A stretch of DNA of 64,000 nucleotides, taken from the NCBI RefSeq assembly GCF_014191715.1, contig NZ_JACHWY010000001.1, positions 1,736,001 to 1,800,000 on the forward strand, in the 5' to 3' direction. Under the pieces are notes generated by a model. That model saw only the letters and a list, made by a program, of their open reading frames with translations. It ran no database searches and was not told where the DNA came from. This document shows positions 8,291 through 46,667 of this stretch, in pieces; the first letter of the stretch is position 1; every line of letters begins with the position of its first letter. Origin of the DNA: Litorivivens lipolytica. GTDB taxonomy: Bacteria; Pseudomonadota; Gammaproteobacteria; Pseudomonadales; Spongiibacteraceae. The position numbers and the translations under genes were made by a program.

Positions 8291-9952
8291 ATGGCCCAAT
8301 ACGTATACACCATGAACCGGGTCGGCAAGGTTGTGCCGCCCAAGCGCGAAATCCTTAAAGACATCTCATTGTCGTTTTTCCCCGGCGCCAAGATCGGCGT
8401 ACTCGGTCTGAACGGGGCCGGTAAATCCACCCTGCTGCGCATCATGGCTGGCGTGGACACCGAATTTAACGGTGAAGCCCGCCCCCAGCCCGGCATCAAG
8501 GTCGGCTACCTGCCCCAGGAACCGGAGTTGGATGCAGAAAAGACCGTACGCGAAAGCGTGGAAGAAGGTCTGGGCGAAGTAAAAGAAGCCCAGGCTGAGC
8601 TGGAAAAGGTCTACGCCGCCTACGCTGAGCCCGACGCTGACTTCGATGCACTCGCCAAAAAGCAGCAGCAACTGGAAAACATCATTCAGGCCGCGGACGC
8701 CCACAATCTGGATCACCAGCTGGAAGTGGCCGCCGACGCCCTGCGTCTGCCCCCGTGGGATGCCAAAATCGCTAATCTGTCGGGGGGTGAAAAGCGCCGC
8801 GTCGCCTTGTGTCGCCTGCTGCTGTCCGGCCCGGATATGCTGCTGCTAGACGAACCCACCAACCACCTGGATGCCGAATCTGTAGCGTGGCTGGAGCGCT
8901 TCCTCTGCGACTTCAGCGGCACAGTGGTCGCCATCACGCACGATCGCTACTTCCTCGACAACGCCGCCGGCTGGATTCTGGAACTGGACCGCGGTCACGG
9001 CATCCCCTACGAAGGCAACTACTCCGACTGGCTGGAAGCCAAGGAAAAACGCCTGGAAATGGAAGCCAAATCCGAAGCCTCGCGCAAGAAGACTATCGAG
9101 TCGGAACTGGAATGGGTGCGCAGCAACCCCAAAGGCCGCCGCGCCAAGAGCAAGGCTCGTCTGCAGCGCTTTGAAGAACTGCAAAGTCAGGAATTCCAGA
9201 CCCGCAACGAAACCAACGAAATCTACATTCCACCGGGCCCACGCTTGGGCGACAAGGTGATTGAGGTCAATGGCATCAGCAAGTCCTACGGCGACCAACT
9301 GCTGTTCGACAACCTGAGCTTCTCCGTGCCCAAGGGCGCCATCGTCGGCGTGATCGGTGGTAACGGTGCTGGTAAGTCGACTCTGTTCCGCATGCTCACC
9401 GGCAAAGAAACGCCTGACAGCGGCAGCATCGAGATGGGCGAAACCGTCAAGCTGGTTTCTGTGGATCAGATGCGTGACAACCTCGACGACAGCAAAACCG
9501 TATGGGAAGCCGTCAGCGACGGTCACGACATTCTCAACATCAACGGCTACGAAGTGCCTTCGCGCGCCTACATCGGCCGCTTCAACTTCAAAGGCTCCGA
9601 CCAGCAAAAACGCGTTGGCGAACTGTCCGGCGGTGAGCGCGGCCGTCTGCAACTGGCCTGCACACTGCGCCAAGGTGGCAACGTATTGCTGCTCGACGAA
9701 CCCTCAAATGATCTGGACGTGGAAACCCTGCGCGCTCTGGAAGAAGCCCTGCTCACCTTCCCCGGCTGCGCCATGGTGATCTCTCACGATCGCTGGTTCC
9801 TCGACCGTATTGCCACACACATCCTCGCCTACGAAGGCAACTCGGAAGTAGTGTTCTTTGAAGGCAACTACACCGAGTACCACGAGGATCTGATCGCGCG
9901 TAAAGGCGAGAAGGCTCAGCCAGAGCGGGTGAAGTACAAAAAGTTGAAGTAA
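8291..9952 (+). CDS. ettA: Energy-dependent translational throttle protein EttA
   Basis: ABC-F factor that binds the ribosomal E site and gates entry of the 70S initiation complex into elongation according to ATP/ADP ratio. 554 residues, the usual EttA length. The start at ATG 8291 (MAQYVYTMNRVGKVVPPKR) matches EttA exactly; a longer frame from 8225 would run into the repeat. Domain 1 has GLNGAGKST, LSGGEKRR and [11 protein letters not shown]. Domain 2 has GGNGAGKST, LSGGERGR and LLLDEPSNDLD. The P-site tRNA-interacting linker SNPKGRRAKSKARL is present. A dispersed repeat begins 14 nt downstream. Confidence 0.97.
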   Translation: MAQYVYTMNRVGKVVPPKREILKDISLSFFPGAKIGVLGLNGAGKSTLLRIMAGVDTEFNGEARPQPGIKVGYLPQEPELDAEKTVRESVEEGLGEVKEAQAELEKVYAAYAEPDADFDALAKKQQQLENIIQAADAHNLDHQLEVAADALRLPPWDAKIANLSGGEKRRVALCRLLLSGPDMLLLDEPTNHLDAESVAWLERFLCDFSGTVVAITHDRYFLDNAAGWILELDRGHGIPYEGNYSDWLEAKEKRLEMEAKSEASRKKTIESELEWVRSNPKGRRAKSKARLQRFEELQSQEFQTRNETNEIYIPPGPRLGDKVIEVNGISKSYGDQLLFDNLSFSVPKGAIVGVIGGNGAGKSTLFRMLTGKETPDSGSIEMGETVKLVSVDQMRDNLDDSKTVWEAVSDGHDILNINGYEVPSRAYIGRFNFKGSDQQKRVGELSGGERGRLQLACTLRQGGNVLLLDEPSNDLDVETLRALEEALLTFPGCAMVISHDRWFLDRIATHILAYEGNSEVVFFEGNYTEYHEDLIARKGEKAQPERVKYKKLK

Positions 9953-45143: not shown

Positions 45144-45530
45144 GCTGTTGTTGCCAAAAGGTTACTGTTGTTTCTGGCACACGATGCTTGGCGGCGACGT
45201 GCGAGCTGCACAAAAAATAGCAAAAAAGTATAAATATTAAGCGCTTGGAAAGATTTTTCAGTTTATACACTGTCGCTGGGCACCAACGATCTACACAATC
45301 TCACAGACCACTGTTACACTCCCATAACCTTAGATGACTGGACTTTTCAGTCCATTTCGTTAAATTAAGGACAGTGGTAACAATAATAAAGTTACGTGTC
45401 AGGTGGTATCAGCACGACAACAAGCGCGATCAAGAAAGCCTCGCGCAACCGTTGGCCGTTCGTGCCGTTAAAAGACTTGGTTTCAGAGAATTCTAATAAT
45501 TTCTGCGCCGGACACTGGATGTAGAGGCTT
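45144..45530. other. 387-nt non-coding region upstream of the CHI-like/TonB-C gene
   Basis: No protein gene is apparent. It holds a 6-bp dyad TGGACT TTTC AGTCCA (45339-45354) nested in a wider inverted repeat ACCACTGT (45307-45314)/ACAGTGGT (45371-45378). It could be a long leader with regulatory structure. Nothing matching a known riboswitch was recognised. Confidence 0.5.
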
Positions 45531-46667
45531 ATGAACCGTTTTATTGCAGCTTTTCTGCTGACGCTTGCGTCGCAGGTTTCCTTCGCTCAAACCGAACTCG
45601 ACGGCATGTCATTGCGCGGCCTGGCGGTTTATCAGCAACTCCGTACCGATTACTACATCGGTGGCCTCTATCTACCGCAACCGGCATCGACACCCGATGA
45701 TGCCTTTTTCATGCCCGGACCGAAACGCATGGATTTGCGAGTTGTGACGGAGTCGTGGAGTGACCGCCGATTTTCCCAACAGTGGAACCAGCTGATCCTG
45801 ATCAACAACTCTCAGGATATTCAGCAGGCCCAACAGGACAACATCATCGCCTTCGCGACCATGCTGAAGGACGATCTGCGGGCCGGTGACCATATCACCA
45901 TCGACCTGCTGCCCGAACAGGGCACCGTAGTTAAACTGAACGGCACCACCCTGATGAAGACCGCAGACGCCGAGTTCTTCAACTTGCTGTTGTCGTGCTG
46001 GATTGGTGCTCGCCCGCCCTCAAGCGGATTCAAACAGGACATCCTGTCCATTCCCGGAGGGGAACGCGGTGCTGGCCTGATGACCAGCTTTGAAATGGCC
46101 GGGCCGACCCAAAGCCGTATTGCAGAAACCAAAGCCTGGGGCAGCGGCAAGAGCGCCGCGCCCGCCAAACCCAAACCCCAGAGCAAACCAGCCGACACCG
46201 GCCCATCTGAAGCCGACCGACTAGCCGCTGAAAAAGCCCGCCGCGAAGCCGCAGAGGCCGAGGCAGAAGCGGCCAGACAAGCTAAATTAGCGGCCGAGCG
46301 CGCCCGCAAAGAGGCAATCGCCAAAGCGCTGGCCGAAGCGGAAGCCAAAGCTAAAGCGGCTGCCCGCTCCAAGGAATTGATCAACGAATACAGCTCGACC
46401 ATGGTTCGCGCCAGTTACCAGCACGTTCGCTACCCCAAACGGGCACTGAAGCTGAATCAGCAGGGAACGGTATTGCTGGAGGTTATTATCGATCGCGGCG
46501 GTTCGCTGCTGTCCTCCAAGGTAATCCAGAGTTCAGGCTATTCGTCGCTGGATGAAGCCGCGGTGACAGCGGTAGAGAAAACTGCGCCCTTCCCGTCCAT
46601 TCCGAAAGAAATCCTGGGCAATCAAATCGAATTTACGCTGCCCTTTACCTTCCAGATCTCAAGCTGA
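45531..46667 (+). CDS. Secreted chalcone-isomerase-like protein with helical spacer and TonB C-terminal domain
   Basis: Unusual modular protein, function unknown. 378 residues: a signal peptide (1-19, cleavage near SFA/QTEL), a chalcone-isomerase-like domain (about 22-190, LRTDYYIGGLYLPQ and LKDDLRAGDHITIDLLPEQG), a linker rich in PKPKPQSKP, an Ala-Glu-Lys coiled coil (about 205-285, TolA-like), and a TonB-C domain (about 290-378, YPKRALKLNQQGTVLLEVI, SSGYSSLDEAAVTAV). There is no N-terminal anchor like that of TonB or TolA, so the TonB-C domain would float free in the periplasm. It has a long upstream region and no operon partner; the convergent DUF4404 gene follows. Confidence 0.82.
   Translation: MNRFIAAFLLTLASQVSFAQTELDGMSLRGLAVYQQLRTDYYIGGLYLPQPASTPDDAFFMPGPKRMDLRVVTESWSDRRFSQQWNQLILINNSQDIQQAQQDNIIAFATMLKDDLRAGDHITIDLLPEQGTVVKLNGTTLMKTADAEFFNLLLSCWIGARPPSSGFKQDILSIPGGERGAGLMTSFEMAGPTQSRIAETKAWGSGKSAAPAKPKPQSKPADTGPSEADRLAAEKARREAAEAEAEAARQAKLAAERARKEAIAKALAEAEAKAKAAARSKELINEYSSTMVRASYQHVRYPKRALKLNQQGTVLLEVIIDRGGSLLSSKVIQSSGYSSLDEAAVTAVEKTAPFPSIPKEILGNQIEFTLPFTFQISS

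Follow-up and report, generated by a model that had tools for sequence, protein, structure and literature searches.

A family of probably secreted proteins joining a chalcone-isomerase-like domain to a TonB C-terminal domain: candidate soluble adaptors of the periplasm

TonB C-terminal (TonB_C) domains are treated as the working end of an energised, membrane-anchored machine, which raises the question of what such a domain does on a chain that appears to be cut free of the membrane. A gene of this kind lies in Litorivivens lipolytica, in a stretch of 64,000 nucleotides that we analysed as a whole (hereafter the window; contig NZ_JACHWY010000001.1, positions 1,736,001 to 1,800,000), where an open reading frame at 45531-46667 on the plus strand encodes 378 residues. 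The original prediction, made from the letters alone, described a four-part chain of signal peptide, chalcone-isomerase-like (CHI-like) domain, coiled coil and TonB_C domain, and proposed a domain search and a structure prediction. These returned Chalcone_3 and TonB_C domains with confident CHI and TonB/TolA folds; signal peptide, CHI-like and TonB_C parts were borne out by Pfam, NCBIfam and AlphaFold2, and a long helix is predicted (Table 1). The anatomy of the fusion, comprising its domains, predicted folds, a signal-peptidase-like site, its place in one clade and purifying selection, is well supported. As to function, our reading is tentative, possible rather than probable: the fusion would be a soluble, non-energised periplasmic adaptor or ligand carrier that grips TonB-dependent receptors while holding a hydrophobic ligand, the binding steps being ones that we infer.

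Table 1 Features of the fusion gene in window coordinates, with examples of the cyclic-nucleotide-binding (CNB) neighbour (see text) in other genomes.
Feature	Position	Strand	Basis
Sec signal peptide, residues 1-19	45531..45587	+	sequence; predicted cleavage between SFA and QTE
CHI-like / fatty-acid-binding-protein-like domain, residues 24-172	45600..46046	+	Pfam, AlphaFold2, fold match, AtFAP1 profile match
Two-helix extension of CHI-like domain, residues 173-204	46047..46142	+	AlphaFold2 helices 177-189, 194-204
Probably flexible Pro/Lys/Ala segment, residues 205-226	46143..46208	+	pLDDT <50 at 207-225
Long Ala/Glu/Arg/Lys helix, residues 227-296, TolA-II-like linker	46209..46418	+	AlphaFold2
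TonB C-terminal domain, residues 298-375	46422..46655	+	Pfam, TIGR01352, fold match
387-nt non-coding leader	45144..45530		gap to preceding ORF
CNB neighbour examples	L092:10227-10889, L040:6842-7543, L110:7930-8595		

The fusion family is apparently undescribed. As the original prediction had suspected of the combination, the papers listed from an open-licence library included none joining chalcone-isomerase-like proteins and TonB, and nothing usable on the function of bacterial CHI-like proteins; the word 'chalcone' is absent from the main text of a study of TonB/TolA evolution (PMC12204202). A survey of how often the architecture occurs, likewise proposed at the outset, indicates that it is not a one-off. 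Searching 293 sampled genomes of the window's order (presumably GTDB Pseudomonadales) with an alignment of 20 fusions, we found full-length relatives in at least 56 genomes, with at least 62 genes in 17 families by our own reading. The rows counted span both domains and are listed to an E-value of about 1e-20, the two overlapping rows of genome G037 being taken as one gene; both counts are minima, as verified fusions with one-domain rows (for example L086 of G093) fall outside the 62. In a sample of the class (370 genomes), the window's own protein was the only full-length match among the matches listed, and in a sample of the phylum (397 genomes), three genomes matched at E ≤ 1e-35, these being the window's genome and two others from its order. 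One other genus of the family was sampled, and its 18 genomes gave no full-length match, though most of those searched carry a separate Chalcone_3 match. This patchy occurrence suggests that the fusion is dispensable for many relatives.

Both domains lie in one frame in 42 non-duplicate loci according to home-made profiles. Fourteen loci are titled Spongiibacteraceae, Oceanicoccus, Thalassolituus, Kangiella/Kangiellaceae, Gammaproteobacteria and, once, Verrucomicrobiaceae (probably a mislabelled MAG); the protein of Kangiella aquimarina DSM 16071 contains both Pfam domains. A quick tree was built from 114 CHI-like domains, 57 from fusions and 57 standalone. All 57 fusions fall into one group (SH-aLRT 96), consistent with a single origin of the family; the tree has SH-aLRT support only, is rooted for drawing, and leaves out identical or short rows and fusion rows holding X. 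It needs three label changes, and two standalone rows sit inside the fusion clade: L021, which is cut by a contig end, and L022, which, as a CHI-only frame, has probably lost the tail. Comparison of three congeners puts dN/dS at 0.08-0.14 in the CHI-like part; for TonB_C it is 0.02-0.10 in two pairs, the third having saturated synonymous sites. These values are rough, since several comparisons approach synonymous saturation. Both domains clearly appear to be under purifying selection, and the linker diverges faster (dN 0.16-0.37). A chance reading frame or frame artefact is ruled out by this selection together with homologous open frames in many genomes. A viral protein was also considered and rejected, with no match at E ≤ 0.001 in a viral structure library and a G+C content (57.3%) near that of the window (56.4%).

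The C-terminal domain scores above the curated cut-off of TonB_C (PF03544; E 2.4e-17, 63.6 bits against 24.6), as a TonB energy transducer would, and also matches the NCBIfam model TIGR01352 (tonB_Cterm; E 2.3e-19, 69.5 bits against 27.1). AlphaFold2, run on 15 sequences (the window protein and 14 relatives), gave a mean pLDDT of 83.8 for the whole protein and a pTM of 0.50, which leaves the arrangement of the domains undefined; ten-residue blocks of the TonB_C domain reach pLDDT 85-94. The modelled domain superposes on H. pylori TonB (6sly; Z 12.1, rmsd 2.3, 94 residues) and, over residues 260-375 of the model, on P. aeruginosa TolA-III (1lr0; Z 11.8, rmsd 3.2, 113 residues), and has the fold of the TolA/TonB C-terminal domains. 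Residues Y301, P302, G312, L340, A347, P371 and F374 are invariant across the 20 aligned fusions. Seven of the 56 distinct members carry two TonB_C domains; three such double fusions (L098, L104, L109) lie on the same strand beside small genes that we read from their sequences as porin-like and PstS-like, a possible operon; the pair from L098 had no Pfam match.

Ahead of the TonB_C domain, AlphaFold2 predicts a low-confidence stretch (207-225) and then a single helix of 70 residues. The coiled coil originally proposed here is not supported, with Ile, Leu, Val, Met or Phe at 5 of the 20 a/d positions in the best register; with no clear heptad pattern, this Ala/Glu/Arg/Lys helix looks more like a long helix of the TolA-II type. 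The linker is long in all 56 distinct members (60-236 residues, median 109.5) though its composition changes, and in 17 of the 56 it contains at least 14% Pro, so a helical rod is not general.

These features bear on an alternative that we regard as unlikely, in which the fusion acts as a TolA-like envelope tether. Its TonB_C domain would bind TolB, another periplasmic protein or peptidoglycan, its CHI-like domain would sit on a lipid or membrane protein, and the whole would form a passive periplasmic strut. TolA has the same succession of a long Ala/Glu/Lys/Arg helix (domain II) and a C-terminal domain of the same fold (domain III), and the structural tie between TolA and TonB leaves room for a partner other than a TonB box; moreover, the NCBIfam TolA model TIGR02794 gives a weak match (29.7 bits, under its cut-off of 59.45). 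Sequence profiles nevertheless favour TonB, with PF06519, the Pfam TolA model, also below its cut-off (14.4 bits against 25; E 0.045, compared with the TonB values above), and the Pro-rich linkers speak against a rod as a general feature. Unlike TolA, the fusion has no predicted retained anchor, and the genome has a TolA-like gene of its own elsewhere, at about 22.8 kb of the window, which we named by reading its sequence.

Turning to possible partners of a TonB-like domain, the 3.49 Mb genome contains 54 TonB-dependent receptor matches, all over cut-off, and TonB boxes are therefore probably plentiful. There are four TonB_C matches, the fusion and three others whose sequences we read as TolA, an anchored TonB and a TonB encoded next to ExbB/ExbD; on this reading, ordinary TonB is present apart from the fusion. 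At the locus itself, a gene that we read as TlpA-like lies upstream on the same strand and a DUF4404 gene (Pfam) lies convergently 40 nt downstream, and no receptor, Ton gene or ExbB/ExbD was recognised beside the fusion among the window's reading frames.

The original claim that the gene stands alone between unrelated genes thus holds at the window locus, but not across the family, where a gene for a cyclic-nucleotide-binding (CNB) protein adjoins the fusion in 28 of the 56 fusion genomes, divergently in all 28 and with 228-622 nt between matches. For this count, 48 of 77 CNB rows were used, the other 29 being in genomes without a counted fusion or (in G037) on another contig. A homologue of the CNB protein (E ≤ 1e-25) is present but elsewhere in 8 of the 56 genomes, and none was found in 20, including the window's; at the same threshold there was none in the sampled genomes of family f21, which we take to be Pseudomonas-like. 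Fisher's test of co-occurrence gives p 5e-13, a value that ignores kinship and is not to be taken at face value. The window's genome does have two CNB-profile matches, both Crp-like proteins whose C-terminal part is, by our own reading, a DNA-binding HTH.

The CNB neighbour itself has about 215-250 residues, with PF00027 as the sole Pfam match in two proteins tested. An AlphaFold2 model of one shows a CNB roll followed by helices only, and its best Foldseek matches are CNB proteins; conserved R, W and N residues mark the C-terminal helices. No DNA-binding domain was found by Pfam in the two proteins, or by AlphaFold2 and Foldseek in the one, so the neighbour is not an obvious regulator. P. aeruginosa has a cAMP-binding protein other than Vfr, CbpA, as described in PMC3419228; the neighbour would likewise be a non-Vfr cAMP-binding protein, its own cAMP binding being putative. 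Where present, a CNB protein as the conserved neighbour points to signalling more than to uptake, which counts against the adaptor reading. The CNB partner does not serve as a general clue to function, since it was not found in the window's genome or in 19 further fusion genomes; it offers a lead for some of the family but does not explain the window gene.

Other genes recur near fusions in smaller numbers. In six loci (L040:9160-9723, L092:7842-8405, L049, L089, L107 and L110), the fusion is flanked on its other side by a convergent gene whose product has about 187 residues; the protein from L040 had no Pfam match at E ≤ 0.01. L050, L087, L102 and L109 have an SBF (sodium/bile-acid-symporter-like) gene adjacent or close to the fusion, checked with Pfam in L050. 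In genome G027, a standalone Chalcone_3 gene (L102:7764-8321) divergently adjoins the fusion gene (8686-9900).

Receptors and CNB genes together enter into a second alternative, a competitive brake, which we consider rather improbable. Here the soluble TonB_C domain would fill TonB boxes and block energised TonB, to an extent set by the ligand of the CHI-like domain or by cAMP-linked expression. A TonB_C domain with no predicted anchor, the excess of receptor matches over TonB_C matches (54 to four) and the divergent CNB gene in half of the fusion genomes would all fit. The window's genome, however, lacks that CNB neighbour, which in any case carries no detected DNA-binding domain and is no obvious regulator, and a brake could be argued to have no need of so long a linker.

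Whether the protein could itself be an energised TonB depends on its N-terminus. This reads as a Sec signal peptide, MNRFIAAFLLTLASQVSFA followed by QTE, with a small-x-Ala site. We applied our own sequence rule, which requires a small residue at -3, Ala at -1 and a polar residue immediately following, the site lying 7-22 residues into the hydrophobic stretch. A signal-peptidase-I-like site was found in 54 of the 56 distinct fusions, the window protein included, against 3 of 15 TonB_C proteins that lack a CHI domain; this control set is assumed to be anchored, and two of its members are nearly identical. L032, a fusion with an N-terminus truncated by the contig, was excluded. One of the two N-termini that fail the rule reads VGA followed by P. 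The hydrophobic stretch contains His in 8 of the 56 fusions, the window protein not among them, and in 11 of the 15 other TonB_C proteins, and its mean run is 14.2 in 69 fusion rows compared with 15.8 in the 15. SHLS is the motor-binding motif of TonB according to PMC12204202; the exact pattern S-x-H-x-L-x-S is absent from all 56 fusions and also from all 15 other proteins, and so fails to separate the two sets. In the window protein, no second membrane segment is evident past the signal, where the top 19-residue hydropathy is 1.19.

An uncleaved N-terminal anchor would have undone the original prediction; the distribution of sites, judged by this sequence rule only, instead indicates that the N-terminus is cleavable rather than retained as the transmembrane anchor of a TonB energy transducer, and the fusion protein is probably secreted. 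The fusion shares with TonB its C-terminal domain, by sequence and fold, and a long linker on the scale of the periplasm, but in place of an ExbB/ExbD-coupled anchor it has a predicted cleavable signal peptide, and it has an additional CHI-like domain. We therefore hold it very unlikely that the fusion is an anchored, energised TonB variant, in which an uncleaved N-terminal segment would couple to ExbB/ExbD and the CHI-like domain would be an insertion after the anchor. The similar lengths of the hydrophobic runs would agree with such a variant, as would the two N-termini without a site by rule, though one of these is the VGA sequence above. The frequency of cleavage sites and the scarcity of His tell against it, as do a folded domain that in the model begins about 8 residues past the predicted cleavage site, the lack of a recognised ExbB/ExbD beside the gene, and the separate ordinary TonB systems that we read in the genome.

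The original prediction would equally have fallen had its first domain not been CHI-like, and here the predicted structure upheld it. Residues 25-172 match Chalcone_3 (PF16036; E 3.2e-24, 86.3 bits, cut-off 27), AlphaFold2 models residues ~27-172 confidently, with the two extra helices of Table 1 following, and comparison of this model by Foldseek and VIA-align gives Z 14.2 to 6ms8 (rmsd 2.5 Å over 151 residues). With both the profile score and the CHI fold, it belongs to PF16036. VIA-align scores AtFAP1 (4doo) almost as high (Z 14.0, rmsd 3.0 over 151 residues), and AtFAP1 is also the best sequence relative in the PDB (E 3.3e-9), followed by AtFAP3 (E 0.019), when searched with a profile of fusion and standalone CHI domains. 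No CHI enzyme appeared among the nine PDB sequences up to E 10, the seven besides AtFAP1 and AtFAP3 being unrelated proteins. This leans towards the carrier reading, and by its nearness to AtFAP1 in sequence the CHI-like domain may bind lipids or fatty acids. AtFAP1 differs in being a plant fatty-acid-binding protein with no TonB_C domain, and ligand binding by the bacterial domain is putative. PhuW is a candidate CHI-like relative.

Residue 34 aligns, by motif alignment, with what we take to be the active-site Arg36 of CHI. Among the 56 standalone rows that have a residue at this position, 52 have Arg; none of the 57 fusions does, the residue there being Y (22), H (17), F (11), E (6) or I (1), with Tyr in the window protein. 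The fusions therefore lack, at this position, what would be the conserved active-site Arg of a catalytic chalcone isomerase, which argues against isomerase chemistry. A periplasmic isomerase-like enzyme recruited to receptors by its TonB_C tail is on this ground highly improbable, even though the nearest fold matches include catalytic CHIs. Besides residue 34, the fusion clade is marked by R79, N92 and R196; R196 is present in 56 of the 57 fusion rows, and W203 in all 43 rows that have a residue at its position, the other 14 being gapped. Standalone rows were cropped to the model match, and gaps at R196 and W203 partly reflect this cropping.

Standalone Chalcone_3 (PF16036) proteins carry the homologous domain but are about 180-235 residues long in most cases among the matches listed, and mostly keep the Arg. 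The window's genome also encodes one, of 183 residues (L114:6817-7368). Its gene is divergent to a putative cluster that we take to be oxidoreductase, DUF1365 and cyclopropane-fatty-acid-synthase-like, a setting in keeping with a link between the domain family and lipids.

The region 5' of the fusion gene, non-coding for 387 nt as originally described and measured here to the preceding reading frame, is AT-richer than the gene (44.2% against 57.3% G+C). A 26-nt stretch (45374-45399) is identical in an alignment of three congeners while the leader has otherwise diverged, and contains the dyad GTAAC-N9-GTTAC (45377-45395). The dyad is exact in the leader, and the window has three matches at up to one mismatch against 0.51 expected. 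A terminator-like hairpin (45336-45354) precedes the conserved stretch. A shared operator is not supported, since 3 of the 42 fusion loci have the dyad upstream and all three belong to the window's genus; nor is a known RNA, with no Rfam match in the 1901 bases searched. On the plus strand of the leader there is no promoter-like site, and on the minus strand there is one, against 0.8 expected by chance.

Taken together with the anatomy, the adaptor reading would work as follows. The fusion protein would be released into the periplasm, given its predicted signal peptide, and its TonB_C domain would dock by beta-strand addition on the TonB boxes carried by TonB-dependent receptors of the outer membrane. 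The linker would hold the CHI-like domain as far as about 10 nm away, where it may bind a hydrophobic acyl- or lipid-like molecule. With no ExbB/ExbD-coupled anchor, the protein would deliver no proton-motive force and hence be a non-energised adaptor, which could take up or hand over its hydrophobic ligand at the periplasmic mouth of the receptor, or else sense that ligand.

A broader and more speculative proposal, which we think doubtful, is that the family adds a third type to the TonB-fold envelope proteins, next to TonB and TolA. It would be a soluble, unpowered 'ligand-relay' adaptor that brings an acyl- or lipid-binding domain to TonB-dependent receptors, where imported hydrophobic substrates would be received, and that arose once in one order and is partly tied to a CNB partner.

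If the adaptor reading is true, TonB-box recognition would have a second, unpowered use, by a conserved family in which a signal peptide and a domain that probably binds lipid replace the anchor. There would also be a hint of how hydrophobic compounds imported by receptors may be handled in the periplasm of receptor-rich bacteria. The question is testable, since a strain that is cultured and named, Kangiella aquimarina DSM 16071, has one member.
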